A stretch of 64,000 bases of DNA from Streptomyces sp. NBC_01237. GTDB lineage: Bacteria > Actinomycetota > Actinomycetes > Streptomycetales > Streptomycetaceae. The notes beneath the pieces were generated by a model. It saw only the letters and a list, made by a program, of their open reading frames with translations. It ran no database searches and had not been told where the DNA came from. Both the position numbers and the translations under genes were made by a program. Shown here one piece after another: positions 7,427-28,728 of this stretch (the first letter of the stretch is position 1; each line of letters begins with the position of its first letter). The stretch lies in assembly GCF_035917275.1 (NCBI RefSeq), contig NZ_CP108508.1, positions 8,060,001 to 8,124,000 of the forward strand, read 5' to 3'.

Positions 7427-7431
7427 CGTCG
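7427..7431. repeat. Target-site duplication, left copy (CGTCG)
   Basis: CGTCG abuts the left TGT terminus; the same five bases follow the right ACA terminus at 26637-26641. Five-bp duplications are the hallmark of Tn7-like transposition. Confidence 0.9.
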
Positions 7432-7474
7432 TGTAGGTTCGCGCGACCGTTGTCATTCCGGTCCGCGGTGACCT
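7432..7474 (+). repeat. Left transposon end, TnsB-site candidates
   Basis: Reading inward, TGTAGGT is followed by GTCAT at positions 21-25 and TGACCT at 38-43. The right end has the same TGTAGGT, GTCAT at exactly 21-25 and TGACCT at 40-45. A CCACGG appears further in on both sides. These shared blocks are probable TnsB binding sites. Confidence 0.75.
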
Positions 7475-7537
7475 GCTGCTTGCGCTGCTGTCTCATTGGT
7501 TGTCCCACGGTTTCGGTCTCAGCTCGGTGGCATTTCC

Positions 7538-8074
7538 TCACGCGGCATCGCTTTGCGGGTCGTCGGCGGGCTTCCAGGTCTGGTCGAACCAGGCGATGAA
7601 GTCCTTCACGGTTCCGATGCGGGCGATCCTCTCGTGGATGGCTCGCTGATCGTGACCGGGGAGGAAGTCGCCTCGGCTGATGGGCTTGCCGCATCCGCAG
7701 TTGCATTCACGGTTGCCCAGCGGGGAGTCGAAGTAGGTGATGGGGTTCTGCTGGGCGCCGTTCGGGGCCGGCTTGCCGACGTAGTGATCGTGGACGGGGT
7801 GCCCGGGGCCGAGGATGCGGCCTTCGAAAGCTCGTCGCCCACCAGGGACGTCAACGATCCGCTCGATCTCCATGGCCTGGCGGACGATCCCGCCGCCGTT
7901 GACAACCGCGAACCGCTCTCGTTCGACGCGTGATCCAGGCATGACCCAGACGCCGCGGGCGATGTCGTGGAGCTGCTGGTCGGACAGCCCGTCGCTCCAG
8001 CCGATCTGCGAGCGCTGGAGGGCATCGCTGTTCGGGTCGACATCCTTCTTCTTGCCGAGGGTGATCTGAATCAT
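7538..8074 (-). CDS. Hypothetical protein with CxCxC cluster, transposon cargo
   Basis: A 178-residue protein starting MIQITLGKKKDVDPNSDALQ, with GGGAGG six bases before the ATG. The middle has short beta-like stretches (VWVMPGSRVERERFAVVNGG). The C-terminal third contains ECNCGCGKPISRGDFLPGHD then QRAIHERIARIG, a CxCxC plus His cluster that suggests a metal site. This tail recurs in bacterial hypotheticals, but no function is assigned. It is the cargo gene nearest the left end and points toward tpg, so its promoter could now drive tpg. Confidence 0.65.
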   Translation of the reverse strand: MIQITLGKKKDVDPNSDALQRSQIGWSDGLSDQQLHDIARGVWVMPGSRVERERFAVVNGGGIVRQAMEIERIVDVPGGRRAFEGRILGPGHPVHDHYVGKPAPNGAQQNPITYFDSPLGNRECNCGCGKPISRGDFLPGHDQRAIHERIARIGTVKDFIAWFDQTWKPADDPQSDAA

Positions 8075-8149
8075 CGCGCCTCCCTGCGAGGCCGCCTCGG
8101 GTGAGGGGGGAAAGATGCGAAGGCGACCTGTTCAGGATAGACCATTGGC

Positions 8150-8165
8150 CCCCGTTATAACGGGG
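8150..8165. promoter_or_regulatory. Perfect 16-bp palindrome CCCCGTTATAACGGGG
   Basis: A fully symmetric sequence that overlaps the stop codon of the tniQ-tail copy and lies about 75 bp upstream of the start of the gene at 7538-8074. It is a plausible operator for that gene or a recombinase or TniQ site. It is inferred from symmetry only. Confidence 0.4.
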
Positions 8166-8575
8166 TATTACTCATTGGAGCCCTGAGGGTCGGTCGGTTC
8201 TTCCCCGGGCGGCGGCCGGGCAGGTCGTGCCGCCGGCCCAGGCAACTGATCATTCCGAGTGAGAAGCCGGTCTCCTCTGCGAGTTCGCGGCAGGTGCGAC
8301 CAACGCGCCGCTGGACGCGGAACCAGTCGAGATCGATCTGGCGCCAGCGGGTCGCTTCGCTGTCGCGCTTCATGCCGTATTCGCGGACGAGGACCTTGAT
8401 AACTTCCTCATTCACTCCGGCGTGCTCCGCGATGCACTTCAGCGAGCGGTATTCGTCGAGGTAGAAGCGTGCAAATTTGTCCCTGGGGAGAGCTGCGCGA
8501 GGGCGTCGAACAGTGGCTCCTCTCTCCCACTTCGCGCTCTTCGCCCCTGCGGGAGGGGCCGGCTCACTTCCCCTG
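8155..8575 (-). pseudogene. Second copy of the tniQ 3' end (truncated)
   Basis: The translation is about 85% identical by eye to the last ~120 residues of the intact TniQ (KSAKWERGATVRR, RDKFARFYLDEYRSLK, VREYGMKRD, TRWRQIDLDW, EETGFS). The frame is open, but homology starts abruptly near PAPP and the final 15 residues differ. It is a helix-turn-helix tail without the TniQ core, so it is a remnant or a second small DNA-binding protein. It lies in direct orientation to 20095-20490. Confidence 0.8.
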
Positions 8576-8599
8576 GATGACGAAACATCCAGCGCCCAG

Positions 8600-8852
8600 G
8601 TGTCGGAATTTCAGGGGTCACTCCACGACGACCCCGACCCCTACGAGCAGCCCGGCCACGAGTAGGTCGAGCTCGTCGGCGGCGCCCCTGGACGGCCAGT
8701 TCGTCGATGCCACCCACTGGACGCCCGCGGAGCGGGCCACCGGGGCCACGCTGATCACGAACGACGGCGCGTACGGGGCCGGTGGCCGCGCCGAATACGA
8801 AGCACGCCCCGGCACTCCGGACCGGTGGGACTGGGTCGGCGACATCCCCTGA
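8600..8852 (+). pseudogene. Small Streptomyces protein with stop and frameshift
   Basis: From GTG 8600 the frame reads VSEFQGSLHDDPDPYEQPGH then Glu and a TAG stop at 8663. Coding continues with a +1 shift as GPLDGQFVDATHWTP, ITNDGAYGAGGRAEY and WDWVGDIP to 8852. The combined product resembles a family of ~80-residue Streptomyces proteins (GGPLDG...GAYGxGGRAxY...W.W.GD). The stop and the shift indicate decay. Confidence 0.5.
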
Positions 8853-8994
8853 ACCCGGACCAGCCCACCTCATCCGACCCTCCGTCGGGCCTGGGTCAGA
8901 CGGTGCCGTCCACCGCCCCGGGCCCCGTCGCTCGTACGGATTACGGGCACGGTGCCCATGCCCCCTGCCGAGCAGTCACCGCGTCAGAAGCGGC

Positions 8995-9198
8995 ATGGAG
9001 ATCGACTCCCGACACATCGCCGAGCCCGACCTCGTGGTGCTCGACATGACCGCCGCCGACGAGGACACCGCCCACGCCGTCATGGCCACGCAGGAACAGC
9101 GGTGGGCCAGCTCCGGTAGCACTCCTGTACACAGCGAACCGGGAGCACTGGGGGTGAAGGGGCGCGTGTATGCCGACATCCGGCGCCCAGCGCCATGA
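8995..9198 (+). CDS. DUF6207-like small protein
   Basis: A 67-residue protein starting MEIDSRHIAEPDLVVLDMTA, with AVMATQEQRWASSGSTPV and GVKGRVYADIRRP. This is the pattern of the DUF6207 family of Streptomyces, whose function is unknown. The ribosome site is weak, and the next start upstream gives an unnatural extension. It belongs to the transposon cargo. Confidence 0.6.
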   Translation: MEIDSRHIAEPDLVVLDMTAADEDTAHAVMATQEQRWASSGSTPVHSEPGALGVKGRVYADIRRPAP

Positions 9199-9245
9199 CA
9201 TGCCCCGGCACAGAGTGAGAGGGACCAGCGCCCGGTGACGGGCGG

Positions 9246-10127
9246 TTATGACGTGCTGCGGCGCTTCGACCGCCGGTGGAGGACGGCGGCTGCGGCGATG
9301 GCGGCGATGGCTGCGGCGATGGCGGCGGTGATCAGGCCGACGCCCGCGGGGTGGGCGGTTTGTGTCAGCGGGACGGCGGATGCCGACGGTGGAGGGGCTT
9401 GCGGGGTGGTAGTGGCGGCCGGGGTTGCGACAGCGGAGGCGTCCGTTCCCGGCGGGGTGGTGACAGGGCTTGCAGAGGGTGAGGCCGGGGCGGTGGGGGA
9501 CGGGGTGGGGGAGGTTTTCGCGGGGGTGACCTTGAAGGGGGCGACGGTCTTGTCCTGGCCGGCGTTCAGAGTGCAGGGGACGTCGACCTGGCCGGGCCCG
9601 GCCAGGTTGCCGTCGGCGTCCTTGGGCACGAGGTGGAGTGTGAAGCTGCCGGCGGTCACGCGTCCGGTGCCGGGGCGGGTGAAGGAGAGTCGGGGCGCGT
9701 TGCCGGTGGCGGGGATCTCGAAGGAGCCGGAGGCGGGGACGGCGGTGCGGGTGATGGTGAGGCGGACGGGGACGGCGGTCTCGCTCTGCGGGGCGAGGAC
9801 GCGGGTCTCGGCGTCGATCGAGCCTTCGATGGTGCGCACCCCGAGGACGTAGCGCAGGCCGAGGGTGAAGGAGGCCTCGACGGTGGCGGCCGCCTGGATG
9901 GCGAAGGCCGGGCTGGACTCGCCGGCCGGCAGGGTGGCGGGGATGTCCGCGGAGATTCTGGCGGTGATGGCCTGTCCGCCGATGGTTGGGAAGATGCAGG
10001 TGTAGTGCAGGGTGGGGGCGGCGGGCTGGGCTGCTGCGGGGGCGGTGGCGAGAGCGATGGCGGTTGCGGCAACTGCCGCGTGCCGGGTGCGCCTTCTCGG
10101 GCGGTGCGTACGGGATTCGGCGCTCAT
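9246..10127 (-). CDS. Secreted, membrane-anchored DUF6801-like protein
   Basis: A 293-residue protein. A basic N-terminus and a hydrophobic run ending in AAAQPAAP form a signal peptide (about 36 residues). The globular part starting TLHYTCIFPTIGGQAITARI resembles DUF6801, an immunoglobulin-like actinobacterial extracellular domain. A Thr/Pro/Ala-rich stalk follows (about residues 195-255), then a C-terminal membrane helix and a basic tail (HRRSKRRS). Its ATG overlaps the stop of the upstream HTH-NACHT gene (ATGA), so the two are co-translated. It may act as a surface sensor or anchor for that ATPase. Confidence 0.7.
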   Translation of the reverse strand: MSAESRTHRPRRRTRHAAVAATAIALATAPAAAQPAAPTLHYTCIFPTIGGQAITARISADIPATLPAGESSPAFAIQAAATVEASFTLGLRYVLGVRTIEGSIDAETRVLAPQSETAVPVRLTITRTAVPASGSFEIPATGNAPRLSFTRPGTGRVTAGSFTLHLVPKDADGNLAGPGQVDVPCTLNAGQDKTVAPFKVTPAKTSPTPSPTAPASPSASPVTTPPGTDASAVATPAATTTPQAPPPSASAVPLTQTAHPAGVGLITAAIAAAIAAIAAAAVLHRRSKRRSTS

Positions 10128-12460
10128 CGTGCCCCTTTTGTCGAGTGGTCGCGTCGGCGTTGTCTGCGGCCGTGGCGCTGTTGGTGGCTGCGGCTCAGGT
10201 GGCTCTGGATCCAGGCGTGGCGGAACTGGTAGACCGCGCCGACCTGGCGGAGCACGCCGCGCTGGTGGGCGTCGTCCAGGAAGGCAATCAGTGCCCAGGG
10301 CAGTTGGCCCGTGAGCGGCAGCCAGATGCGGGCCAGTGCCACCCACTGACCCCAGGCGGTCAGGCTCAGTCCGTAGCCGAGCCCGGCACCGAACGCACCC
10401 TCTAGCCCGAACACCAGGCCGACCTCGAAGCCGCGCAGCGGCCCATACACGATGCCGTTGACCAGACCGACGCCGATGCCGAGGACGAGAGTCCAGGTGA
10501 GCAGGTGGTAGGCGACGTTGCGGCGGTCGATGTGCAGCAGGTCTGCGGGACTGACCACGGATTCGATGCGGACCGGGGCTTCGAACAGGGCAATCAGGCC
10601 GAAGACCATCCCGATCGAGAGGGCAATCGGTACAACGAACACAAGACCGGCGACGAGGCCGGCCCCTTGTCCGTCGGCGAGGCCGAGCGGGGCCACCAGG
10701 CCTTCGTCGACCAGGATGAGCAGCGCCATGCCGACTGCTCCGCCCAACAGACCGATCAGGAACCGGATGCGGGCATTGCGGCGGGTTGTCGGGGTGCCGA
10801 TGCCGAGCCGCATACGGACCGGCGAGGGTCTGAGGGCGGCGCGGGCGGAGGCGCGCCAGTAGACGAGTCCGAAGAGTGTGCCGGCGGCGAGGCCGTGCAG
10901 AACGCCGACCAGCAGGCCTCGGACGACAGCGAACCGGAGGCTGTGCGAAGTGGCGACCAGATCGATGGGGACGTTGCCGATCCCGGTGGTGACGCCGAAG
11001 GCGAGGCCGGCCAGGACGGCGATGATCACAGTGCGGGAGAAGCGGCTCATGCCGGTGCCGACCTCCCACCAGGTGATGTCCTGCCGTTCGCGGCCGAGTC
11101 GGGTCAGGTGGTCGGCGAGGTGGCCGAGCCAGCGTTCGGCGCGTTCCGCGTCCCACGATCCGGGTTGGCGGTGGGCTGTGTCGAGCCGTTCAGTGGGACG
11201 GGGGCGGTAGACGGCGGGGACGAACCCGGCCAGCAGGTGCTCCTCGATCGCATCGGGGTCGGGGAAGCGGGCGGTGTCCAGGAGTTCGCCCGGCCGCCGA
11301 TCTGGGTGGTCGCTGTACATGGTGCGGGCGAGGGCGATCATCAGCGGGGTGCGCAGCGCGGCAGCGAGGTTAGTGCGGCCGGCGCTCTCCGCCGTCCGGG
11401 CGGGGTCGAGGACGGCCTCCCAGGTCGCGCCCTGTCCACCGGTGTCGGCGGGCTCGTGGAAGGCCGGGTCGGTCCGGGGCAGGTAGCCGCGCAGGTCGTC
11501 GAGGTCGAGGTCGCGCAGTTCCAGGACGACTGCGGCGGCCAGCGGGGCGTGCGCCTCTCGGACGGCGGCGGTGAACTCGGTGTGCCGGCTGGTCAGGACG
11601 AGCGGCAGCTGGGCGAGGTTGAGTGCTTCGAGGGCTGGGGCGCGCAGGTCTTCGGCGAGTTCGTCGAACCCGTCGAGGACGGGGAGGAGGAGGTCGTCGT
11701 CGAGCAGGTCCGCAGCCAGTGTCTTGCCGCTGGGGACCCGCCGGGCCAGGTGCGGGTAGTCGCGCAGCAGCCGGGCGATCAGCCAGTCGCGCAGGGCCAC
11801 GGTGGTCGGGTTCCAGGCGCCGAGGCTGAAGATCACGGGCACCCGTTCGTTGCGGGTGCGGGCGTCCAGCAGGTCGAGGGCGAACCGCACCGCCAGGATC
11901 GACTTGCCCGATCCGGCCCGGCCGAGGACCACCAGTCGGCCCGACGGCACGCGCCGGTAGATCTCGGCGACCCGCCGCAGGTCGCCGTTGAGGTCCGGTT
12001 CGGTGCGGGCCTCGCCGGGGGCCAGCAGGTGGGCGTTCGCCGACTGGTCGGCCACGCCCGCCGACACCTGCTGCCAGCGCACCGGAAGTGCGAACGGGTG
12101 GTGCACCCGGTGCTGGGCCTCCTCGCGGCGCCAACGCTGCCGGCTCTCGCGGGCCAGTTCCTCGGCGGTGTCGGTGAGCGGGCCGTGGTCCCGGGGCGGC
12201 GGCGGTGGTTCCGGTGGGGGCGCCGGGGCTTCCGGGACGGTGCCCCCGCTGAGGGCGCTCAGCCAGCGGCGGTCCTCGGGGCCGGCGTCGAGCGCGTCCG
12301 CGATGCGGTTGATGGTGCCGAGCCGGTGATCGAAGGGCCGGTCAGTCTCGATCCGGCGGACAGTGCTCTCGCCGAGCCCAGCCCGCTCGGCGAGCTGGAA
12401 CTGCGTCAGACCGGCCTGCTTCCGTAACTGCCGCAGCAGTGCTCCGAGCGTCTCCGCCAC
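10124..12460 (-). CDS. HTH-NACHT STAND ATPase with C-terminal membrane domain
   Basis: A 778-residue protein. Residues 5-60 form an XRE-type helix-turn-helix (LRKQAGLTQFQLAERAGLGE). A Pro-rich linker and a NACHT ATPase follow: Walker A GRAGSGKS at 180-187, Walker B PVLDGFDEL at 260-268, then sensor-like LTSRH. From about 475 to 715 there are six or more hydrophobic segments. The C-terminus is basic. NACHT proteins oligomerise on sensing a ligand, and bacterial forms include antiphage effectors; a membrane effector would suggest depolarisation. It is divergent from the vWA-PP2C-kinase genes and co-translated with the DUF6801-like gene. The defence role is inferred. Confidence 0.8.
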   Translation of the reverse strand: MAETLGALLRQLRKQAGLTQFQLAERAGLGESTVRRIETDRPFDHRLGTINRIADALDAGPEDRRWLSALSGGTVPEAPAPPPEPPPPPRDHGPLTDTAEELARESRQRWRREEAQHRVHHPFALPVRWQQVSAGVADQSANAHLLAPGEARTEPDLNGDLRRVAEIYRRVPSGRLVVLGRAGSGKSILAVRFALDLLDARTRNERVPVIFSLGAWNPTTVALRDWLIARLLRDYPHLARRVPSGKTLAADLLDDDLLLPVLDGFDELAEDLRAPALEALNLAQLPLVLTSRHTEFTAAVREAHAPLAAAVVLELRDLDLDDLRGYLPRTDPAFHEPADTGGQGATWEAVLDPARTAESAGRTNLAAALRTPLMIALARTMYSDHPDRRPGELLDTARFPDPDAIEEHLLAGFVPAVYRPRPTERLDTAHRQPGSWDAERAERWLGHLADHLTRLGRERQDITWWEVGTGMSRFSRTVIIAVLAGLAFGVTTGIGNVPIDLVATSHSLRFAVVRGLLVGVLHGLAAGTLFGLVYWRASARAALRPSPVRMRLGIGTPTTRRNARIRFLIGLLGGAVGMALLILVDEGLVAPLGLADGQGAGLVAGLVFVVPIALSIGMVFGLIALFEAPVRIESVVSPADLLHIDRRNVAYHLLTWTLVLGIGVGLVNGIVYGPLRGFEVGLVFGLEGAFGAGLGYGLSLTAWGQWVALARIWLPLTGQLPWALIAFLDDAHQRGVLRQVGAVYQFRHAWIQSHLSRSHQQRHGRRQRRRDHSTKGAR

Positions 12461-12515
12461 GCCCCGCCCTTCCCCCGAAGTTCAAAAGAACAGGCGTCGA
12501 GCCTACCGCTGGCGA

Positions 12516-12533
12516 CCGGTCACATATGACCGG
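12516..12533. promoter_or_regulatory. Inverted repeat in divergent promoter region
   Basis: CCGGTCA-CATA-TGACCGG lies between the start of the HTH-NACHT gene (12460) and the vWA gene (12681). Its position suits a shared operator, possibly for the HTH domain of the NACHT protein. Confidence 0.45.
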
Positions 12534-12680
12534 CGCTGTGACCTGTGCGTTTGCCTGATGCGACGCCAGCATCGGTGGTGCGGACAGCAGTTCTGCGGCC
12601 CCCGGCGCACCTCGTTGCACGGTCCGGGCCGCCCCGTCCGCGACACCAGTTGCGTGAACTTGAGAGAGGCGGTGTTTGCG

Positions 12681-13364
12681 ATGGCGGAGGCGAAGGGCGT
12701 CCTGCTGCCGGCCTACGTGGTGGCCGACGAGTCGGGCTCGATGGCCCCGTACCAGCGGGAGCTGGGGGACGGGGTGGCGTCGCTGTGCGAGGGGCTGCGT
12801 GCGGAGCCGATGGTCGCGGCCAAGCTCCGGCTGGCCGTGCTGGGCTTCTCCGACGATGTCCAGGTCCGGCTCGCGGTGGCCGACATGCGCACCGAGACCA
12901 CGGTGCCCCGGTTGGTGATCCGCGGGGTGACCAACTACCAGGCCGTCTTCGAGGACCTGCTGCAACGGATCCCCGGCGACGTGAAGTGGCTGCGCGGCGA
13001 GGGCTACCGGGTGCACCGCCCGGTGGTCTTCCTGCTCAGCGACGGCCAGCCCACCGACGGCTCGTCCTGGCACGCGCCGCACGCGGAGCTGACCGACCGG
13101 GACCGCACGCCGACCGCGCCGAACATCATCGCCTGCGGTCTCGGCGACGCCTGGGCGCAGACGATGGTCAAGGTCGCGACCCGCCCCGAGTTCGCCTTCC
13201 TTGCCAAGTCCGGAACCGACGTCGGCCGGGCGATCTCGGAGTTCTTCCACTCGCTCACCATGAGCCTGGTGGCCTCCGGACACGCCCTGAACTCGGCCAA
13301 CCCGCAGCTGGTGGTGAACCGGCCCGACCAGTTCACCATGGCCATCGACGAGGTCGGCCGGTGA
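12681..13364 (+). CDS. vWA-domain protein, TerY-like
   Basis: A 227-residue von Willebrand factor A domain. The metal site motif DxSxS is at residues 16-20 (VVADESGSMAPYQ), with the Thr position in GVTNYQAVFEDLL and the Asp in FLLSDGQPTDG. This is the compact TerY type of vWA protein, which pairs with a PP2C phosphatase and a kinase in stress and conflict gene sets. GTG 12672 is an alternative start. The TGA overlaps the GTG of the next gene. It probably acts as a metal-dependent scaffold for phosphorylated partners. Confidence 0.85.
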   Translation: MAEAKGVLLPAYVVADESGSMAPYQRELGDGVASLCEGLRAEPMVAAKLRLAVLGFSDDVQVRLAVADMRTETTVPRLVIRGVTNYQAVFEDLLQRIPGDVKWLRGEGYRVHRPVVFLLSDGQPTDGSSWHAPHAELTDRDRTPTAPNIIACGLGDAWAQTMVKVATRPEFAFLAKSGTDVGRAISEFFHSLTMSLVASGHALNSANPQLVVNRPDQFTMAIDEVGR

Positions 13365-14332
13365 CGCCCGCCCGCCGGGGCGACCCGGACCCCGTGCCGT
13401 CGGCGGCGCCCCCGAAGCCCGCCGGGCCGCCCCCGGCGACCGGACCTGACCCGGTGCCGTGGCAGCGGATCACCGTGGACGTGCCGGGCCTGGAGTTCGA
13501 GGCCCGGCCTCCCAGCCAGTACGCCTTCGACTTCCCCGACAGCGAGTGCGAGGGCTGGTCCACCGACCGGCTCACCCTGCGGTTCGCCTCCGTCCGCGGC
13601 GCCAAGCACCGCTACTACCGGCAGCCGCGCCAGGACGCGGCGCGCGCCGCCGTGCACGAGGCCACCGGCAGCATCGTCTTCGCGGTCGCCGACGGCGTGT
13701 CCAGCGCCGCCGAGTCCCACCAAGGCGCCGTCGAGGCGTGCCGGGCCGCTGTCGAACGCATCCTGCACCTGCTCGACCGGAACGCGGAGCGGCTGGACTG
13801 CCCCGACGTCGCGGCCCACGCCGCGGAACGGCTGCGCGAACTGGCGCGGTGGCGGCTCGGCATCGCCGAGCCGCAGGCGGCCGAGGTGGCCCGGCTGTAC
13901 GCGACCACCCTGGTGGCGGGGGTGGTCCGTGCCGCAGGCGACGTCCTGGAGGCCGAAGTGTTCCGGATCGGCGACTCCGGGGCGTGGCTCCTCGACCGGG
14001 CCGACGGCGGCTACCACCCGATGTTCGGCGGCAAGGCCGTACCGGGCACGCCGCTGGTCAGTAACGAGGTCTCCCCGCTTCCCCTGGTCCCCGACCGGCT
14101 GGAGACCGCCGTCGGACGGCTGGCCGAGCCGTGGACGCTGCTGGTCGGCACCGACGGGTTCGGCGACCCGCTCGGCGAGGGAGACGGCCGGGTCGGGGAG
14201 CTGTTTGCCCGTCACCTCGCCTCGCCACCGCCGCCGTTGTGGCTCGGCCACGTGCTGGACTTCACCCGGGAGACCTTCGACGACGACCGCACCCTACTGG
14301 CGATCTGGCCCCGGGCCGAGGGAGCGACGTGA
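13361..14332 (+). CDS. PP2C-type Ser/Thr phosphatase
   Basis: A 323-residue protein with a Pro-rich N-terminal 35 residues. The PP2C core has FAVADGVSSAAESHQGA (metal-binding Asp in the DGVSSA motif), ATTLVAGVVR, FRIGDSGAWLLDR, LLVGTDGFGDPL and a final DDRTLLAIW with the conserved Asp pair. These are the metal-ligand blocks of PPM/PP2C enzymes. It overlaps both neighbours by four bases, so vWA, phosphatase and kinase are made in step. The likely role is to reverse phosphorylation by the downstream kinase. Confidence 0.88.
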   Translation: MTPARRGDPDPVPSAAPPKPAGPPPATGPDPVPWQRITVDVPGLEFEARPPSQYAFDFPDSECEGWSTDRLTLRFASVRGAKHRYYRQPRQDAARAAVHEATGSIVFAVADGVSSAAESHQGAVEACRAAVERILHLLDRNAERLDCPDVAAHAAERLRELARWRLGIAEPQAAEVARLYATTLVAGVVRAAGDVLEAEVFRIGDSGAWLLDRADGGYHPMFGGKAVPGTPLVSNEVSPLPLVPDRLETAVGRLAEPWTLLVGTDGFGDPLGEGDGRVGELFARHLASPPPPLWLGHVLDFTRETFDDDRTLLAIWPRAEGAT

Positions 14333-16275: not shown

Positions 16276-16333
16276 CCCCGCCGCGCGACAACCGACCCAC
16301 CATCCCACCGACAGAGTTTTTTAAGGATCCGAC

Positions 16334-16561
16334 ATGGCATACCGCTACCGGTGCGGCGAGTGCAGCTTCAAAACCTCCTGGGGCACCGAATCCCAGGGCG
16401 AGCAGGCGCAGATCACGCACTACACCGACCGCCACCCCGGCCTGTGCCCCGGCGGAACGGTCGAGGCCAACACCAAGAACCCCGAGGGCAGCATCGGCTG
16501 CCTCGGCGTCCTCGCCGTGCTGTTCCTGCTGTTCATCCTCGCCGCCTCGTGCAACCGGTGA
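16334..16561 (+). CDS. Zinc-ribbon, membrane-anchored small protein
   Basis: A 75-residue protein. The N-terminus MAYRYRCGECSFKTSWGTE has a CxxC knuckle, with His residues and a second Cys (HRHPGLCPGG-like region) completing a likely zinc site. The C-terminal 20 residues form a membrane helix. AAGGATCC precedes the ATG. It follows the kinase by 58 bp and probably belongs to the same operon. Cys4 zinc proteins are common partners in TerY-P-type gene sets. Confidence 0.7.
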   Translation: MAYRYRCGECSFKTSWGTESQGEQAQITHYTDRHPGLCPGGTVEANTKNPEGSIGCLGVLAVLFLLFILAASCNR

Positions 16562-16599
16562 ACGTCGCTAACCCGAACACCGCAACCAGGAAGGACGTC

Positions 16600-19253: not shown

Positions 19254-19288
19254 CCTCCGGCGAGAACGGGCGGCCGACGGGAGTGGAC

Positions 19289-19903: not shown

Positions 19904-20094
19904 ACCCGCGAACATGGTCAACGGCCATGCCGGGACACTCCTTGGGGGGTTGCCGGGCGGCTTCGGACGAGCGGTGGGAGCAGCGGGAGCGGACGGCTTG
20001 GAGCGACGAGGCGTGCGTCGACTGCCGCCGGGCCGACGTCGACAAGCGCGTCCATCGGGAGGCCAAGGCGGTCGAGTGGCACCAGTCTGCAGGG

Positions 20095-22413
20095 TCAGTG
20101 CGTCTCTCGGCTGGCCCTTGGCTGGCCACCGGGCATGTCATGGCGCCGGGCCAGGTAGCTGATCATCCCGATCGAGAAGCCTGTCTCCTCGGCCAGCTGG
20201 CGACAGGTGCGTCCGACGGCCCGTTGGGCGTGGAGCCAGTCGAGATCGATCTGGCGCCAGCGGGTGGCTTTGCCGTCGCGCTTCATGCCGTATTCGCGAA
20301 CGAGGACCTTGATGGCTTCTTCGTTCACGCCGGCGTGCTCCGCGATCCACTTCAGCGAGCGGTATTCGTCGAGGTAGAAGCGTGCGAACTTGTCCCTGGG
20401 AAGGGCGGCGCGAGCCCTTCGGACCGTGGCTCCTCTCTCCCACTTCGCGCTCTTCGCCTCTGCGGGAGGGGCTGGCCGCTCCCGCAGGATGAAGCGGACT
20501 GCGTCATGGCTGACGTCGAGGCGGCGGGCGGCCTGTGCTGTTGTCAGGCGTTCGTCCCTGATGAGCCGGTGCAGCATGCCGGGGTCGATGTCCCGCAGGT
20601 CGCAACCGGGTAACTTGAGATCGCGGACGATGTCTGTCGGGGGCTGCCAGGAGAGAGGTTCGTCGTGGATTCCCTGCTGGGTGAGGAACTCGGCTGCGTG
20701 TCCTTCGAGTTGGCTCATCAGCACCGGGGTGAGATCTGTTTCGAAGGTCCGCAGCATGGTCCGCAGTTCCGTGGTGCTGGGCGCGTAGGTGGCCGGGGCG
20801 AGGGTTGCGGGGAGTCCGCTGAGCCGTTCGAACAGCATCGCTCGGGCGAACTGGTGGCGCCGTACTCCGCCGGCTTCGAAGTCGATGCCCCGGCAGAGCT
20901 GCGTCCAGGTGTCCAGCGGCAGCAGATCGCGGTAGTCGACCGTGCGGCGACGGGTGTAGTCGATCGGTGATCCTTCCTGGTCGAGGTAGTCCGCCAACGC
21001 AAGCAGGCCGAGGCTGATGCCGTGGAAGTGGCCCCGCTTCGTGAGCCGGAACGTCATGTGAGATCCCAGCCGTTCCTCCACCGGTGCGTTGAGGAGGCGG
21101 GCCGTGGTGGTGAAGTTCCCTGTGCCTCCGATCAGCAGCAGGTAGCACGACAGGGCAGGGCGGATGGTGCGTGAGAGGGCCCCGTCGAGAGGGCTGAGCC
21201 GGGCGGACCAGGCGGGCCAGAGCTGCGTCGGGGTCCTGCGGGCCCGCTCGGCGACCCGTGTTGCCGCCGAGCGGCCCGGCTTGCGTGGCAGTTGGTGCGC
21301 AGTGCGGTAACGCAGCTGATCAGGGCCTCCGAGACGAGGTGCGAGCGTTGCAAGATGGATCGCGTCGAAGACCGGGCTGGTGTGGGCCCACTGCAGCCCG
21401 ACCGCGAGTGGAATGCTGCCGTCGGCGTGGCTGATCAGGTGGCGAAGGGCGGCTCCGGCCGCGTGGACGTCGCTGTGCTGGAGGATGCGCAGGGCCGCGG
21501 TGACGGCGAGGGCGGCAGTCGCGGCCCGCCGTGGGGCAAGACGTCCCGGGCGGGTCTCCTCGACAGGATCGAAGGATCGCCGCTTCTCGGGCAGGGGCTG
21601 TTGGTGCAGTGCCAGGATTTCCGGCGGGACGAAGTCCGTCAGCCGGTCGGGGACACGGCGAAGCAGGATGCAGGCCAGCGCCCGAAGGTCACCGAACAGC
21701 GCGAGGCTGGGCTGGGGGTGGTCCTGGTAGACGCCGAAATCGGCCTGCCCCGAGGCGATCGTCTTCTCGATGATCGCCTGGGCCGCGATCACAGGTCCTC
21801 CCGTGGCGAGCGTGAGGGCGGGGACCTCCTCGAACGGCTGACCGCAGCGCGTCGGCGGCGCGTCGTTCTCCGATGGGCTGTGGCAGCGGCCCGGAGTCAG
21901 CGGGTGCCGGGTGGTCGCCGGGAAGTGCCGGGGCATGCGGCTGCAGCGCGGGCAGGCATCCGCCAACAGCATGCGGTGATCGAGGCAGGCGAAGGACCAA
22001 CCCAGCCTCCAGTCCAGTCGCCATCTGCCGCCGCTCGCGGCCAGGCAGGCCGGGCAGTATCGAGATCCTCGGGCCCGACCCCAGACATGCCGTGCCGCCA
22101 CGCGTCGACGCTGTGCGTCGACGACGAGGGCTCGTTGGTCGTAGCGGGCCAGGGTCATGGCGTGTGCCTGCGCCGGGGTGGGGCCGGCCGACCATGAGAT
22201 GGCCGCCGCCTGGTCCGCGTCGAGAAGAGTGACCAGGCGCCTCAAGATGCCCGAGTCCACCGGCCGGGCGGATCCGCGGGGCAGCAGGCCCATCGAGGCC
22301 AGGACGTCGCCGGTGGTGGTGCCCAGCCGGTGGGCGATCGCCTCCCACCAGGAGTCGAGTGCCTCGCCCGGCTGCGGGGCGAGTCGGATCGGCAGGGTCC
22401 GCGCGCGCGTCAC
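20095..22413 (-). CDS. tniQ: TniQ/TnsD-like target-selection protein (large form)
   Basis: A 772-residue TniQ family protein. The N-terminal TniQ region starts TRARTLPIRLAPQPGEALDS. A zinc site has Cys120, Cys123, Cys143, His146, Cys154 and Cys157 (YCPACL, FACLDH, ACPRC). The long C-terminal half carries at least two helix-turn-helix segments (TTAQAARRLDVSHDAVRFIL; VGRTCRQLAEETGFSIGMIS). The size matches TnsD-type site-selecting TniQ rather than short CRISPR-linked forms. The GTG start overlaps the tnsC stop (GTGA). Direct recognition of the tap 3' end is inferred from the insertion site. Confidence 0.85.
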   Translation of the reverse strand: MTRARTLPIRLAPQPGEALDSWWEAIAHRLGTTTGDVLASMGLLPRGSARPVDSGILRRLVTLLDADQAAAISWSAGPTPAQAHAMTLARYDQRALVVDAQRRRVAARHVWGRARGSRYCPACLAASGGRWRLDWRLGWSFACLDHRMLLADACPRCSRMPRHFPATTRHPLTPGRCHSPSENDAPPTRCGQPFEEVPALTLATGGPVIAAQAIIEKTIASGQADFGVYQDHPQPSLALFGDLRALACILLRRVPDRLTDFVPPEILALHQQPLPEKRRSFDPVEETRPGRLAPRRAATAALAVTAALRILQHSDVHAAGAALRHLISHADGSIPLAVGLQWAHTSPVFDAIHLATLAPRLGGPDQLRYRTAHQLPRKPGRSAATRVAERARRTPTQLWPAWSARLSPLDGALSRTIRPALSCYLLLIGGTGNFTTTARLLNAPVEERLGSHMTFRLTKRGHFHGISLGLLALADYLDQEGSPIDYTRRRTVDYRDLLPLDTWTQLCRGIDFEAGGVRRHQFARAMLFERLSGLPATLAPATYAPSTTELRTMLRTFETDLTPVLMSQLEGHAAEFLTQQGIHDEPLSWQPPTDIVRDLKLPGCDLRDIDPGMLHRLIRDERLTTAQAARRLDVSHDAVRFILRERPAPPAEAKSAKWERGATVRRARAALPRDKFARFYLDEYRSLKWIAEHAGVNEEAIKVLVREYGMKRDGKATRWRQIDLDWLHAQRAVGRTCRQLAEETGFSIGMISYLARRHDMPGGQPRASRETH
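20125..20490. repeat. Direct repeat shared with about 8205-8566
   Basis: The tniQ 3' coding region is repeated near the left end in the same orientation, mostly identical over ~360 bp. The two copies bracket the 11.5-kb cargo and could recombine to delete it. Confidence 0.75.
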
Positions 22414-23540
22414 CGGCGGGCCGCCTTCTGGCGGGTCCGTCGGGAGCGCTGTCCCTTCAGGAGATTGCGTACGTCGTCCTGGGCCAGGTGCGCCGCCTGG
22501 TCGATCTTGACGCGGCTGAGAAGTTCCTCGTCCAGACGCTCGGCGCCGGTGCGGACGGCTCGCTGGCAGCCGCGGTTGATGAGGGTCATCAGCGAGCCGA
22601 TGTGGCCGCTGGAGCGGATGAACAGGTAGTCGGACAGGTCGTCGGCGATCATGCCCCGGTAGGTGCCACGCAGGACCAGGCGCTTCTCCAGGGCCAGCAG
22701 CAGCTGGCGCCACTGGCTGCGGCCCTGGTCGGTGACCAGCTCGAAGGACCCCATGTCCAGGCGGGTCGTGCGCCGGCCCGTCTGGGCCAGGACCGCGTTG
22801 TCGTAGGACTCGCCCTCGGAGAACAGGCCGCGCTTGGCCAGGCCGACCCCGACGAACAGCAACGTGACCGGGAACTCGTTCGCGACGTACTTGAAGTGAT
22901 TGCTCACCTCGACCCCGCCGGTCGCCCTCCAGCGCAAAAAGTGCAGATCGTCGACGACCAGCAGCTTCACATCACAGGAAAGCACGCAGTCCAGGGCCCG
23001 TTGGGCGAACTGTGCCGTGGTGCCGGTGGTGCGGCCGGGGTGGCCGAAGAACTCCAGCATCGCCCGGTTGAAGTCCTTCATCCCGGTGTTCCCGGTCAGG
23101 CCGACCCGGCAGACGGGGAGCCGTTCGTGCCCGCCGGCGGTGAACGCGCCGCCCTCGGCGATCTCCCGGCGGTGGAAGTCCCGGGCGAAGGCCAGCACCG
23201 CCGTCGTCTTGCCCAGCCCGGGGAAGGCGTCCACCGCGACGGCGCCCTTGGCCTGGTCACCATCCTGCTGGTTGCTATCGAGGATGTCCCACAAGTCCTC
23301 GTGCAGCTCGGCCAGCTGCGGGGTCCGCAGTGGCCCGAGGTTCGCGTGCCAGACCCGCCGGGCCTGGTCATACTGCGCCTTCGCGCGCTCGCCCAGCGCC
23401 ATGTACTCGTCGCGGGGCAGCAGTTCCGGCTGTGTCCGCGGTGCGGCTTCCGCGAACGCCGCCCAGCCCTCCTTGCGCGAGAGCGTCAGCGCGTCCAGAC
23501 GGTGGGAGTCTCCCGGCGTCCAGGTGCCCTCGCTGTTCAC
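22410..23540 (-). CDS. tnsC: TnsC/TniB-like AAA+ transposition regulator
   Basis: A 376-residue ATPase. Walker A is FPGLGKTT at 106-113 and Walker B LLVVDDLH at 193-200. An AAA+ lid follows, with IRSSGHIGSLMTLINRGC typical of TniB/TnsC. TnsC polymerises on target DNA, links TniQ to TnsA/TnsB and controls target immunity. The GTG overlaps the tnsB stop by four bases and the gene ends overlapping tniQ, so all are translationally coupled. Confidence 0.88.
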   Translation of the reverse strand: MNSEGTWTPGDSHRLDALTLSRKEGWAAFAEAAPRTQPELLPRDEYMALGERAKAQYDQARRVWHANLGPLRTPQLAELHEDLWDILDSNQQDGDQAKGAVAVDAFPGLGKTTAVLAFARDFHRREIAEGGAFTAGGHERLPVCRVGLTGNTGMKDFNRAMLEFFGHPGRTTGTTAQFAQRALDCVLSCDVKLLVVDDLHFLRWRATGGVEVSNHFKYVANEFPVTLLFVGVGLAKRGLFSEGESYDNAVLAQTGRRTTRLDMGSFELVTDQGRSQWRQLLLALEKRLVLRGTYRGMIADDLSDYLFIRSSGHIGSLMTLINRGCQRAVRTGAERLDEELLSRVKIDQAAHLAQDDVRNLLKGQRSRRTRQKAARR

Positions 23541-25666
23541 GCGTCCTCCAGAGCGCCCGAGTAGAAGTCGCTGTCGTCTTCGAGCTCCACGAATTCGGCC
23601 TCGTCAGCCGCGTCGTCATCGCCCATCTCCGGTGCGGCCCCGGACGCGAGTTGCGGTTCTGCCTCATCCGGCAAGTCCATGAGGCGTCTCACGCTCGGCA
23701 GCGTCGCGACGCTCTCCTCAGGCTCGGGCAGATCCAGGGCCTTCTGTTCCCGGGCGAGCCGCAGGGCCATGCGGCGCTCGACCAGCGTGGTGCCCAGCCC
23801 GAGATTCCAGCGTTCGAACAGGTCCCGGACCGCGGCCTTGTCGTCAGGGAACCGGTCGCGGGACGCGGCCAGGCGGCGGGCGAACTGCAAGGCTTCCTCG
23901 CTCACCGGCATGTCCCGGCCCGGTGCGTGTTCCCAAGCCAGCGCATGCCACCCGCGGTTCGCGGGATCGCGGAAGTAGACCGCGTTGATGTCGTCCGGGT
24001 TCACCGCGACGGGCCACTTGCCGTCCCGCTCGCCGCTGAGCAGACCGCGGTAGGGATCCAGGGCGGCGCCGTTGTAGCGGCGAGCATCCAGATCGATCCC
24101 GTAGTGCTGGATCTTCCGTCGTTCCACCCGCAGGAACTCAAACGCCAGGTCCGGATCGCGCGGGACCTCGACGTAGCCGGCCCGATTCAGCCCGTGCTCG
24201 AACATCGCCGCCGGCGACATCCGCAGCCCCGGCACCCCCGGATCGACCAGACTCGTGTGCGGCCGGTGATGATAGACGCAGGCCACCCACTCGCGGATGA
24301 TCGCCTCCAGCTCGTGGAGGAAGAAAAACGCCTCACCCTCGGGACGCTCCCCGCGCGAGTGCAGATCAGGGCCCTTGTAGCCGGGCAGGCCCTGCAGCAG
24401 GTCTTCGCGCAGGGTCAGGAAGAACCTCTCCAGCGGGCCCTTGTCCCGGCCCGTCCGCAGCCGGGCCGGCTGCACCGAGATCCCCAACCGGCGGCAGACG
24501 CTGGTCAGATGCTCCGAGACGAACACCTTGCCGTGGTCGACCAGCACCGTCTCCGGCACCACCGCCGGCGACGCCGCCGAACGCATCGGCCCCTCCAACG
24601 CCGTGACGTCGATCAGCACCGACCGCGGGATGCCGTGCTCGGGCCAGACAGCATGCGCCAGCCAGTCCTCCCCCGCAGGCCGGGGGCGGAACGCCTGGTA
24701 GAGGGCAACGCTGGCATCGACGGCCTTCGTCGACACCGGCGTGATCCTGATCCCCAAGACGCAGCGCGTGTACCAGTCCATCGAGACGGTCAGCTCCGCC
24801 TGCAGCCACTGCAGCGTCACCGGGTCCAGGGCGAAGACGTCCAGCCGGTTGGTGTCCATCAGCAGGTACTCGCCCGGCCGGGTCGGCCGCAGCTTCCCGT
24901 AGACGCCGCCGGGCCGGGTGGCGATGTCCCGGTTCCGCTTCGTGCTCAGCCGGAACGTCGGATGACGCCGCTCCAGATCCTCCAGGAGGCGGTAGGTGGT
25001 CGCCCGGCTGGGCAAGTCCTCCTCCGTAAAGCCCCTGGCCAGCAGCCGGGCCCGGGTCCGCTCGATGACCATCTTGCGCGACGGCTTGGACTGGCCCGTG
25101 TGCTCGACCATCACCTCCAGCGCCGCCTCCGACCACACCTCAGCGTTCCGATGCCCCGAACGTGGCCCGCTGCGGGCCGGCACAAGCCCTGCTTCACCGT
25201 CCTGACGGAAGGCCGCGACCCACCGCTTGACCGTGCGAGTCGCCACCTCGAGCTCGGCCGCCTTCGCCGCGTACCGGCTCTCCATCGGCTCACCCGCCGC
25301 GTAGGCAGCACGAGGCTCCCCCACGGCCGGCAGTTCCTCGCTGCCACTGCGGAACCCGGTCAACACCTCCCGGACATGCGCGGCCCGCTCCAGCACCCGC
25401 TCCCGCTCGCCGCCGTCCAGCTGGTCCAGCACCACCGCCGCTGTCTCCTGCGGATCGTCGGAGGCCGGCCCCGGCCCGTCCGGGATGACGCGAGCGCGCT
25501 CCGACAACAGCAGTTCCTTGACCGCCAGCCGCAGCAGCCGGCCCCGGCCGTCCTTGAGGACCACCTCACCGCCTGCCTGCGTGCCGGCGAATTCCACCAC
25601 CTCGACGACCTCACCGTCATAGGAGAAGCGGCTCCCCACTCCCACCCGCACCGCAGCCCGGCTCAC
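23537..25666 (-). CDS. tnsB: TnsB-like DDE transposase
   Basis: A 709-residue Mu/TnsB-type transposase. An N-terminal beta domain and helix-turn-helix segments (about 125-155, RYAAKAAELEVATRTVKRW) precede the catalytic core. The core has Asp271 (EYLLMDTNRLDVF), Asp377 (VLVDHG) and Glu413 (KGPLERFF), with DDE spacing of 35 residues between the last two. A Mu-type beta barrel and a C-terminal TnsC-contact tail rich in acidic residues follow. It cuts the 3' ends and joins them to the target. GTG 25666 was chosen because it overlaps the tnsA stop; the frame runs on upstream to 25723. Confidence 0.9.
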   Translation of the reverse strand: MSRAAVRVGVGSRFSYDGEVVEVVEFAGTQAGGEVVLKDGRGRLLRLAVKELLLSERARVIPDGPGPASDDPQETAAVVLDQLDGGERERVLERAAHVREVLTGFRSGSEELPAVGEPRAAYAAGEPMESRYAAKAAELEVATRTVKRWVAAFRQDGEAGLVPARSGPRSGHRNAEVWSEAALEVMVEHTGQSKPSRKMVIERTRARLLARGFTEEDLPSRATTYRLLEDLERRHPTFRLSTKRNRDIATRPGGVYGKLRPTRPGEYLLMDTNRLDVFALDPVTLQWLQAELTVSMDWYTRCVLGIRITPVSTKAVDASVALYQAFRPRPAGEDWLAHAVWPEHGIPRSVLIDVTALEGPMRSAASPAVVPETVLVDHGKVFVSEHLTSVCRRLGISVQPARLRTGRDKGPLERFFLTLREDLLQGLPGYKGPDLHSRGERPEGEAFFFLHELEAIIREWVACVYHHRPHTSLVDPGVPGLRMSPAAMFEHGLNRAGYVEVPRDPDLAFEFLRVERRKIQHYGIDLDARRYNGAALDPYRGLLSGERDGKWPVAVNPDDINAVYFRDPANRGWHALAWEHAPGRDMPVSEEALQFARRLAASRDRFPDDKAAVRDLFERWNLGLGTTLVERRMALRLAREQKALDLPEPEESVATLPSVRRLMDLPDEAEPQLASGAAPEMGDDDAADEAEFVELEDDSDFYSGALEDA

Positions 25667-26445
25667 GACGCCGTCCTCAGCCCGCTGCGGGCGCTCAAGG
25701 GAACGCTCAGGTCGACCGACCACTGCTGCTTCCAGAGCAGATGCAGGACCCCGGCCCGCACCAGCGGAGCCGGACGACCAGGCAGGCAGGAAAACGCCTC
25801 TCCCAGCGTGTCCCCGTCCACGACCCGCTCGCGTACTTCATCAAGGATGACCGGGTCGAACAGCCGCTCAGGCGGCGACTCCTCCTCCACCGCCAGGTCG
25901 TATATCTCCTCGGTCAGGTCCGGCTCGAACAGCCAGTCGCGGCGGTAGCCCGCGAGGAACCGGACGTTGGCCAGCTCGGCGTCCGGCGGTTCGCTCCACA
26001 CCTCGTAGTGCCAGCCGCGGGACTCGACCGCCTCGCGGGTCCAGGCGAAGGTGAACGCGTGCTCCGGCTTGGCCGCCCGGTGCCGCGGCTTGACGTCGAC
26101 GACCAACGGGCCTGCCGTGGTGGCCATCAGGTAGTCCGGGATGTGCCGGCGCAGCACTCCGTCCATTTCGGCCCGCAGCAAGAAGGGCTGGGCCACGATC
26201 GCCGTCACATCCCGGTCGAAGTCCGCGTAGAGCAGCCGTGCCAGCTCCAGCCGCGACTCGTAGATGACGTGATCCGACTGCGTACTCGACCAGTACGAAC
26301 CCGAGTAGTGCTTCTGCCCCATGTACCAGCGGAACGTCCGCCACGGCTCAGCCGCGTACAGCATCTCCAAGGGCACCGACTCCCAGGCGAGGCCCTCGGA
26401 CGCCTCATCCTCGGCAAGCCGAACACACACCTCTACAGCCACCAT
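25663..26445 (-). CDS. tnsA: TnsA-like endonuclease
   Basis: A 260-residue protein. The PD-(D/E)xK-type core has Glu63 (YESRLELARLL), Asp104 (IPDYLM) and Asp117/Lys119 (VVDVKPRHR), the catalytic residues of TnsA. It begins FRWYMGQKHYSGSYWSS-like, as in other TnsA N-termini. TnsA cuts the 5' strands so that transposition is cut-and-paste. The C-terminal half contains the TnsC-binding helices. ATG 26445 was chosen because upstream codons are not family-like. The start is 190 bp from the right transposon end. Confidence 0.85.
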   Translation of the reverse strand: MVAVEVCVRLAEDEASEGLAWESVPLEMLYAAEPWRTFRWYMGQKHYSGSYWSSTQSDHVIYESRLELARLLYADFDRDVTAIVAQPFLLRAEMDGVLRRHIPDYLMATTAGPLVVDVKPRHRAAKPEHAFTFAWTREAVESRGWHYEVWSEPPDAELANVRFLAGYRRDWLFEPDLTEEIYDLAVEEESPPERLFDPVILDEVRERVVDGDTLGEAFSCLPGRPAPLVRAGVLHLLWKQQWSVDLSVPLSARSGLRTAS

Positions 26446-26591
26446 CCACCCCAGCGTTCGTGTAACTGACCTTGATCGCAGGACAGTTGCACGGGCACTG
26501 GGGTACGAACGATCACGCGTACTTTCGATCACTCGAAAGGGTGATCCTTCCGGGCTGGGAATCTCAGAGCCGTGGCATAAGTGCTATTTAG

Positions 26592-26636
26592 AGGTCATCG
26601 CTCGCGAGAACATGACGCGGGTTCTGAGTACCTACA
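26592..26636 (-). repeat. Right transposon end, TnsB-site candidates
   Basis: Reading inward from 26636: TGTAGGT, then GTCAT at 21-25 and TGACCT at 40-45, matching the left end. The terminal TGTAG supplies the stop codon of the truncated tap. Upstream to 26446, inverted segments such as CTTTCGA/TCGAAAG may be further sites or the tnsA promoter region. Confidence 0.75.
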
Positions 26637-28728
26637 CGTCGCCGCCCTTGATGTGGCGGGCCGGGTTGAGGCCCTTCTCCATCAGGTCGACCGCCCACAG
26701 CATCGACTGGACGCCCTCCAGCTTCGCCAGGCCGGGCGTGGGCCCGAGGCGGAACCCGCCCGGCTGCGGCTTGCCCGAGGCGGCGTACGGGAGGAAGTCC
26801 AGCGGGCTGGCGCCGGGGCTCGGGTAGACGACGCAGTCGGAGAGCACGGCGAGCGGGTACAGCCCGGTCATCTTGACCATGTTGTTGAGCTTGCGGTGCA
26901 TGTTGACCCGGGCCTTGCTGATGACGGCGGCCCGGATATCGGGGCGCCACGTCGGCCGCGACAGGGCCGGCCACGTCTCACCCTCCTTGTAGTGCTTGCC
27001 CTGGGGGCGCTCGCGGAGCTTGCCGACGCCGCCCTTGACCGTGGCCTTGATCGCGGACAGAACGGCGGCCAGGGCCGGGTCGTTCTGCTTGTGCTGCTCC
27101 ATCGCCGCCAGGAACTCGGTGTCGGTGAGGTCCTTGGTGACGCCCATGTCGGCGAGGGTGTCGACGTAGGCGGTCTTGAGGCGGTCGTGCCAGGGGTCGA
27201 GGTACGCGCCGGTCTCGCGGCGCAGGTACGCCTCGATCGGGTGGACGTCGTGCCCGAGCTCCTGGGCGTAGGCGAGGGTGTGCGTCTGGTACCAGGCCGG
27301 ACCCGTGGGCCGGGTGCCGTCCGGCGTGAACGGGCTGGGCAGGCGCGGGTCCACCTCGATGTGGCTGAGGTCGGCCAGCCAGCTCCCGGGGATCTTCGGG
27401 CTGAACTTCGGGGCGTGGAAATGGTCGGGGCCGCTGAGGCCGACGACCAGGCGGGCCGCGGCGGCGAGGAACGCCGTGTTCAGGTCAAGGCCGACCGCGA
27501 ACGGCAGGATGCACTCCTCATCGGACAGCGTGTCCACCGGCCGCACCCACTGGTACGCCTCCTCGTTCAGGAAACCCCCGGTCCAGCCGGAGTTGACGAC
27601 GACGGGGTGTTCCGGGGTGGCCTCCGGCGGCGCCGGGTCCATCGGCTCGGTGCCCAGGCTGCCCGAGTTGTAGCCGGAGACCCAGTTGCCGGTCTCCGGG
27701 TCCTGCACGGCCTTCGTCGGCGGGCGCAGCGCGGTCATCAGTTCCAGGCCGGAGACGGCGGTGGAGCCGCGCGGGGTGATGACCCGGGTCGCGTACACGC
27801 CGAGGACGCGGGCGATGTCGGCCGGCTCCATCTCGGCGACGCCGGGCCAGGACCGCTCGTCGAGGGCGTCCCACGACAGGATCGCGAGCTGCACGCACTG
27901 CCGGTCGCGGCCCTGCGCCTTGCGGTAGATCCGGGCCCAGGGGCCGAAGCCCCGCTGGGTGAGCTGCCACTTCGCCCTGACGACCTGCTTGACCACGGGG
28001 TGGTCCTCCGGGAGGCGCAGGGAGCGGCGCTGCTCGTGGCCCTCCAGGCGCTCGGGCAGCCCGAGCTTCACGGCGGCGGCCGCGGTGAGCACGATCAGCG
28101 GGTCGGAGTCCTTGCCATACCGGTTGAGCTTCGCGGCACCGAGGCCGGACTCGCGCAGGGTCCACTCCACCAGTTCCGGGACGGTGGTGGCCGGGCAGTC
28201 CAGCACGATGCCGCCCACGGCGTACGCGGAGCCGTCACCGTCCAGCACGGCGAGCGGGCCGTGCGGGAAGCGCGGGTCGGTCGCGGGCTGGGTGGCCTTC
28301 TTCGCGGACGGACGCCGGGACGACGTCGCCGGGCGCGAGGCCGGACGCTCGGGCACGGCCGGGGCCTCCACCGGTGCGGCGGTCTTCGCCTCCGGCTCGG
28401 GGGCGGCCGGGCCGGTGAACGTCTGCGGCACCTGCGGCTGCGGCGCGGCCGCCGGGGCCGGGGCGGAGGGAGCTCCGCGGGCGGGGTACTTCGCGGCCCA
28501 GCCGTTCAGCAGCCGCTGGTACGCCTCCAGGCGCGGCGACTTCGGCTCGGAGCGGCCGTTCTCGTAGTTCTTCACCGTCTGCACGGTCGACTTCAACGCG
28601 GTCGCGAGACGGGCCTGGGTGATACCGGCGGCCTCACGCAGCCGGGCACGCTCCGCCGGGGGCGGGAGCTGCGGCTCCTCCGCCAGCAGCGCGTCGATGT
28701 TCGCGAACAACTCTTCCTCGGATGCCAT
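26632..28728 (-). CDS. tap: Telomere-associated protein Tap (last residues replaced)
   Basis: A 698-residue Tap. An XRE helix-turn-helix (about 30-65, AAGITQARLATALKSTVQTV, then KNYENGRSEP) and a Pro/Ala-rich linker precede the long conserved body (RFPHGPLAVLDGDGSAYAVG; GFGPWARIYRKAQGRDRQC; WAVDLMEKGLNPARHIKGGD). Tap binds the telomere 3' overhang and recruits Tpg. The Tn7-like insertion changes the end from DAVLDEGE to DV, with the TAG coming from the transposon terminus. The protein is probably still functional. The ATG is preceded by GGAGG at nine bases. Confidence 0.93.
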   Translation of the reverse strand: MASEEELFANIDALLAEEPQLPPPAERARLREAAGITQARLATALKSTVQTVKNYENGRSEPKSPRLEAYQRLLNGWAAKYPARGAPSAPAPAAAPQPQVPQTFTGPAAPEPEAKTAAPVEAPAVPERPASRPATSSRRPSAKKATQPATDPRFPHGPLAVLDGDGSAYAVGGIVLDCPATTVPELVEWTLRESGLGAAKLNRYGKDSDPLIVLTAAAAVKLGLPERLEGHEQRRSLRLPEDHPVVKQVVRAKWQLTQRGFGPWARIYRKAQGRDRQCVQLAILSWDALDERSWPGVAEMEPADIARVLGVYATRVITPRGSTAVSGLELMTALRPPTKAVQDPETGNWVSGYNSGSLGTEPMDPAPPEATPEHPVVVNSGWTGGFLNEEAYQWVRPVDTLSDEECILPFAVGLDLNTAFLAAAARLVVGLSGPDHFHAPKFSPKIPGSWLADLSHIEVDPRLPSPFTPDGTRPTGPAWYQTHTLAYAQELGHDVHPIEAYLRRETGAYLDPWHDRLKTAYVDTLADMGVTKDLTDTEFLAAMEQHKQNDPALAAVLSAIKATVKGGVGKLRERPQGKHYKEGETWPALSRPTWRPDIRAAVISKARVNMHRKLNNMVKMTGLYPLAVLSDCVVYPSPGASPLDFLPYAASGKPQPGGFRLGPTPGLAKLEGVQSMLWAVDLMEKGLNPARHIKGGDV
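26637..26641. repeat. Target-site duplication, right copy (CGTCG)
   Basis: Identical to 7427-7431 and directly next to the ACA terminus of the transposon. Confidence 0.9.

Follow-up and report, generated by a model that had tools for sequence, protein, structure and literature searches.

An element within tap

The stretch analysed here (hereafter the window: 64,000 nucleotides, positions 8,060,001 to 8,124,000 of contig NZ_CP108508.1 of Streptomyces sp. NBC_01237) carries a Tn7-like element in the 3' end of the telomere gene tap, next to the terminal-protein gene tpg (Table 1). The host contig is 8,231,337 bp long, and about 143 kb separate the occupied tap from the contig end. Both genes pass their NCBIfam equivalog models, the interrupted gene as telomere_Tap (NF047542, 1118.7 bits against a cut-off of 600) and its neighbour as telomere_Tpg (NF047541, 266.6 bits against a cut-off of 90). 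According to the accessible part of PMC4513846, tap and tpg are organised as an operon, and the replication of typical Streptomyces telomeres requires the two genes. Two more taps in the same genome (L002, L003) are unoccupied.

A first-pass annotation had claimed TGTAGGT...ACCTACA termini, an exact 5-bp CGTCG duplication and a tnsA-tnsB-tnsC-tniQ operon, and we could read all of these in place: TGTAGGT starts at 7432 and ACCTACA finishes at 26636, a copy of CGTCG abuts each end, and the four genes lie together on the minus strand, adjoining the right end. It had also proposed that removal of the element rebuilds tap-tpg without a gap. When the flanks were joined with a single CGTCG, one open frame resulted, with the ending ...ARHIKGGDAVLDEGE*, followed by tpg. 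The exact ending HIKGGDAVLDEGE is found in 105 of the 120 Tap proteins listed (the best 120 of 4222 found), and the other 15 carry close variants, two of them two residues longer. In the window, Tap has lost its last seven residues (AVLDEGE) and gained a Val. The statement that the element lands in the final codons of a conserved gene therefore stands; the likeness drawn to Tn7 at glmS does not, because Tn7 inserts there downstream of the stop codon, whereas the present element sits inside the coding sequence.

TnsA was recognised by NF033179 (243.2 bits against a cut-off of 110). TnsB carries the Mu-transpos_C domain (PF09299), as a DDE transposase with a Mu-type C-terminal domain, and matches a solved TnsB structure at 5e-22; its D290, D396 and E432 align with acidic residues which we take to be the catalytic ones. 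TnsC matches PF05621 (TniB, 37.3 bits), PF13401 (AAA_22, 45.8 bits) and VchTnsC (1.5e-6). TniQ matches PF06527 at 2.3e-20, shows a fold match to the TnsD-TnsC-DNA complex (6e-4) and ends in helix-turn-helix-like helices. For tniQ, the start of the longest open reading frame (ORF) at 22713 was replaced by the GTG at 22413, most likely the true start, which overlaps the tnsC stop; with this start and that of tnsB at 25666, both probable and taken from annotated relatives, adjacent genes overlap by 4 nt. Judged from sequence, the four genes, the ends and the duplication together make this a Tn7-like transposon.

Table 1. Features of the window at and around the element (positions of the window)
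Feature	Position	Strand	Remark
tpg, terminal protein	6843..7400	-	NF047541; intact
Leader frame, predicted	7404..7541	-	GTG overlaps stop of the 178-aa gene (GTGA); 36 left-end codons, then tap's last codons and stop, 3 nt before tpg start
Left target-site duplication	7427..7431	.	CGTCG
Tn7-like element	7432..26636	.	19,205 bp
178-aa gene at left end	7538..8074	-	in all 13 left ends compared
Cargo region	8780..19260	.
DUF6207	8782-9198	+
DUF6801	in 9246-11156	-
Helix-turn-helix (HTH)-NACHT protein	10124-12460	-
PP2C phosphatase	12545-14332	+
PknH_C	16351-17454	+
Endonuclea_NS_2, non-specific endonuclease	17451-19253	+	below its cut-off
tniQ (TnsD-like, 772 aa), predicted target selector	20095..22413	-	PF06527
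tnsC, AAA ATPase	22410..23540	-	TniB, AAA_22
tnsB, transposase	23537..25666	-	start inferred from annotated relatives; longest ORF from 25723
tnsA, endonuclease	25663..26532	-	NF033179; start taken from longest ORF, unsure
Right end	26437..26636	-	opening bases TG TAG, in-frame stop for Tap
tap	26632..28728	-	NF047542; 7 codons shorter, terminated by the element's stop
Right target-site duplication	26637..26641	.	CGTCG
Conserved tap coding block, candidate TniQ binding site	26692..26756	-	56-120 bp before insertion; Trp codon 26695-26697; binding inferred

Recurrence at tap

Relatives were gathered from a TniQ scan giving 13 loci, from a plasmid collection of 59 records, and from end searches that added further plasmids. 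Five TniQ records of the collection reach at least 60% identity; four were listed and examined, and the fifth is probably an 84% identical tniQ fragment of NZ_CP108736. Of the 55 further records, below 60% or unlisted, L029, L030 and L031 were examined. We counted as a close instance, with the window excluded, any locus whose TniQ or left end is at least 75% identical and which keeps at least one intact end. This gave 12 instances, the S. goshikiensis/Mg1 group (four records, two examined) and NZ_CP108736 each counting as one; loci in which no end was found (L008, L016), distant relatives (L010, L013, L015, L017) and five weaker partial left-end matches (H54-H58) fall outside the count.

Ten of these 12 lie at tap and/or tpg: L005, L006, L007+L011, L009, L012, L018, L019, L020, L021 and the S. 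goshikiensis/Mg1 group. Only the tap side is visible in L020, and only the tpg side in L005, L006, L012 and the S. goshikiensis/Mg1 group. Both ends can be read in six elements, the window included and one of them joined across two contigs of one assembly (L011+L007); all six have TGT...ACA ends and an exact 5-bp duplication within the 3' end of tap (CGACG in three, and CAAGA, CAGCC and TACAT). Named plasmids (L032-L035) supplied empty sites with intact endings for four tap types, in addition to the two empty taps of the host genome. The checks proposed at first pass, namely a shared tap position in relatives and the existence of empty sites, thus came out in its favour. As to its warning that relatives might be scattered, ten of the 12 close instances sit at tap and/or tpg; three distant relatives and the two decayed close copies are found elsewhere.

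All seven examined plasmid records with a close element are annotated as linear, a figure whose weight depends on the linear share of the whole collection; this is as the role of tap predicts. No earlier report of tap as a transposon attachment site appeared in the literature searched, whose coverage stops short of most subscription papers and of bioRxiv preprints.

A recurrent spacing from the conserved Trp codon

Counted from the first base of a conserved Trp codon, the insertion lies 61 bp downstream in six of the seven right-end junctions readable in tap, so that the same target position recurs in independent insertions across five tap types. Meanwhile, in nine left-end junctions, the stretch between the insertion and the last base of the tap stop measures 17, 20, 23, 29 or 40 nt. 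Across loci, identity over the last 220 residues of Tap ranges from 48 to 94%, and the sequences group into the five types, with less than 63% identity between types, while TnsB of eight relatives is 89.9-94.4% identical to that of the window; between the window and L009, the left ends are 96.8% identical and the taps 61%. These values fit transposition into taps that had already diverged, with the position measured from upstream.

In a gapless alignment of the six 61-bp loci, 4-9 columns per 15-bp interval are invariant between -120 and about -46, falling to 1-2 closer to the insertion. We propose that the long TniQ, consisting of a TniQ domain and a helix-turn-helix-like C-terminal part as the DNA reader, would bind the conserved coding block upstream of the insertion, that TnsC would relay the signal to TnsA-TnsB, and that the transposase would thereby be placed at a fixed distance. 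Position, duplications, empty sites, recurrence in five tap types and codon phase are read from the sequences themselves; the reading by TniQ and the relay by TnsC we infer.

Transposon ends and the frames of tap and tpg

With 61-bp spacing the cut falls between the first and second bases of a codon, and in six of the seven tap junctions the right end then reads xTG TAG, in which a Val, Met or Leu codon precedes a stop; in L009, Tap would instead be 16 residues longer. The shared codon phase was at one time regarded as selection for in-frame ends, an idea we dropped, since a constant 61-bp spacing leaves the phase almost no freedom and so accounts for it more simply. Any adaptation would consequently concern the ends rather than the site.

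The left end contains a predicted leader frame, whose start codon, GTG or ATG, overlaps the stop of the 178-aa gene (GTGA/ATGA) in 13 of 13 copies, decayed ones included. The frame is open to the tip, with no stop in 468 codons, against 31 and 24 stops in 481 codons in the other frames of the 13 copies, and its ratio of nonsynonymous to synonymous polymorphism (pN/pS) is 0.59, the lowest of the three frames (1.04 and 0.87 in the others). It continues in frame into the tap tail and stop in eight of nine junctions, the tail being judged in L005, L006 and L012 by its position before tpg, with the tap side unseen. Seven of the eight in-frame junctions have 3 to 18 nt between the tail stop and the tpg start; in L009 the leader frame is shifted, yet it stops 2 nt before the tpg ATG.

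The ends accordingly look fitted to the reading frame of the target. TG TAG of the right end would close Tap with one added residue, and the leader may pass ribosomes through the last codons of tap to a stop beside the tpg start, so that the pair stays expressed, and tpg would then be transcribed from the left end of the element. It is likely that this hand-over, together with left-end transcription, keeps tpg expressed.

Alternative explanations

Insertion might be loosely directed or random, with copies surviving only in a dispensable tap tail, or persisting only on linear replicons. The part of Tap that is lost is short and differs from one tap type to another, and may thus be dispensable, but randomly inserted copies should be spread over the tail and over other parts of the genome, whereas the distance from the upstream codon is identical to the base pair in six of seven junctions despite unequal tails, and we consider this explanation very improbable. 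Selection of tap by a guide RNA instead of TniQ, as in a transposon associated with clustered regularly interspaced short palindromic repeats (CRISPR) or another RNA-guided variant, seems to us hardly credible at all. The conserved block does end 56 bp from the insertion, resembling the 50-60 bp given for CRISPR-associated transposons in the accessible part of PMC8649781. However, neither of the marks of such transposons, a repeat array and a target-matching guide, was found in the element: there was no Rfam match, none of the 16 scanned element ORFs matched a Cas family, and the longest exact match of five elements to the tap/tpg flanks was 12-14 nt, against means of 12.6-13.8 and maxima of 15-18 in codon-shuffled controls.

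Several observations nevertheless weigh against a fixed, TniQ-guided spot. The L009 insertion lies 59 bp past the Trp codon, 2 bp off; the conserved block is also coding, so that protein constraint contributes and could by itself explain its conservation; and the base of instances is one 13-locus scan plus a plasmid collection. Two close instances (L014 and the NZ_CP108736 pieces) are decayed and without adjoining tap or tpg, and the window and L018, having a common tap type and position, may stem from one insertion. Left ends and tniQ, moreover, give differing kinships (in a tree without L006, L013 and L010), so that parts of the element may have recombined. Even so, we regard it as highly probable that a Tn7-like element is guided by TniQ to a fixed spot in tap, with ends fitted to the codon phase that would keep tap-tpg expressed.

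The leader is less secure. It could be open merely because transposase-binding DNA happens to be stop-free there, with tpg expressed otherwise and no relay, which would leave the targeting unaffected. The left end is under DNA-binding constraint, to which TnsB may add, and the evidence comes from 36 codons; the 178-aa gene, as a control, has a pN/pS of 0.25 in frame (1.86 and 1.81 out of frame), so that the coding signal of the leader is real but weaker than that of a full gene. About 90 nt separate the leader stop from tpg in L006, where the tap side is unseen, and in the S. goshikiensis/Mg1 copies the tail stop is gone. Set against this are the universal openness and start-stop overlap of the leader, its low pN/pS and its frame shared with the tap stop, and we hold the stop-free explanation to be possible, if somewhat doubtful. 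The fuller proposal, towards which we lean only slightly, is that the transposon has made tap its attachment site, its right end serving as the tap stop and its left end as a ribosome-relaying leader that rebuilds the tail and hands over to tpg, so that it would ride linear replicons without breaking their telomeres and would control tpg.

In pSMg1-1 (L024:20625-21227) the left end is joined to tpg, with the tap stop and tpg start lost, and the annotated tpg-matching gene begins within the transposon end.

Left-end gene, cargo and relatives at other sites

The 178-aa protein has no Pfam or NCBIfam match. At E values up to 1e-5, 122 of 154 candidates count as its homologues, with one 90% cluster of 70 members, and a Cys/His cluster suggests metal binding. 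PADLOC gave weak matches only, to the cargo, and PHROGs nothing informative; the annotated cargo is not the same in L018-L021. The smallest element read, L009:6031-13292, measures 7,262 bp between its ends, and its tnsC and tniQ matches each come in two parts, so that frameshifts are possible.

Distant relatives (TniQ 32-40% identical) use sites other than tap (L013, L029, L031). L029:12049-19503 and L031:12029-20736, with TGTAGGG right ends and 5-bp duplications, occupy non-tap sites of linear Streptomyces plasmids. The end search gave no convincing pair in L010, L013 and L030, and neither tap nor tpg lies within the retrieved stretches of L010 and L030. NZ_CP108736 (L022:8994-9001, 16372-16378) carries head-to-tail copies, in which a left end is followed by 6 or 5 bp and the next right end; the middle copy, of 7.4 kb, keeps tnsA and only the start of tnsB. 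This array suggests repeated insertion at one site, and its abutting copies are the observation made here that bears on target immunity. Directly downstream of tpg in L005:15282-18932 we found a second, distant TnsA-TnsB-TnsC set (30, 33 and 24% identical), and the tap-tpg neighbourhood may thus host more than one Tn7-like lineage.

Comparison with known systems

Because tap marks linear replicons, the element would be expected to spread between linear chromosomes and linear plasmids; if so, the site choice of a transposon selects for DNA topology. If the ends are indeed adapted to the reading frame of their target, they illustrate a way of living within an essential operon. The tap element also offers a test case for how TniQ proteins read coding DNA, and the tap site is a candidate insertion site for Streptomyces engineering.

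Among described systems, the accessible part of Benler et al. (2021, PMC8649781) presents an Actinobacteria-dominated Tn7-like clade, of which, it states, no member had yet been characterised by experiment, and with which our element has its Tn7-like nature and Actinobacteria hosts in common; that part names no tap site, and the main text contains neither 'streptomyces' nor 'telomer'. With TnsF/Tn6022 at comM and the tRNA-homing TnsD elements, as treated in the available text of Faure et al. (2023, PMC10293859), where 'telomer' does not occur either, it has in common a protein-guided, fixed-site insertion beside or in a conserved gene, and it differs in target. Neither TnsE nor a recombinase-type selector was named among the element ORFs scanned. 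The Nocardia brasiliensis element (L013:3462-6281; TniQ 40%, TnsB 60% identical) has the same TGTAGGGTCTCA right end and likewise adjoins the 3' end of a replication gene; its right end, however, lies not in tap but 8 bp past the stop of dnaB, which encodes an 882-aa protein itself bearing a homing-endonuclease-like insert.

Tn7 uses TnsABCD, makes a 5-bp duplication and inserts at a fixed distance from the 3' coding sequence of a conserved gene (attTn7/glmS). The tap element has TnsA, TnsB, TnsC, a long TniQ/TnsD, the duplication and the fixed distance in common with it, as well as the fold match to the TnsD-TnsC-DNA complex; it differs in using tap instead of glmS, in lying inside the coding sequence, 61 bp past its anchor codon, and in ends that appear to carry coding information. 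The Tn7 machinery is thus ordinary, while the site is new and biologically telling, and the ends appear to carry the punctuation of the target gene.

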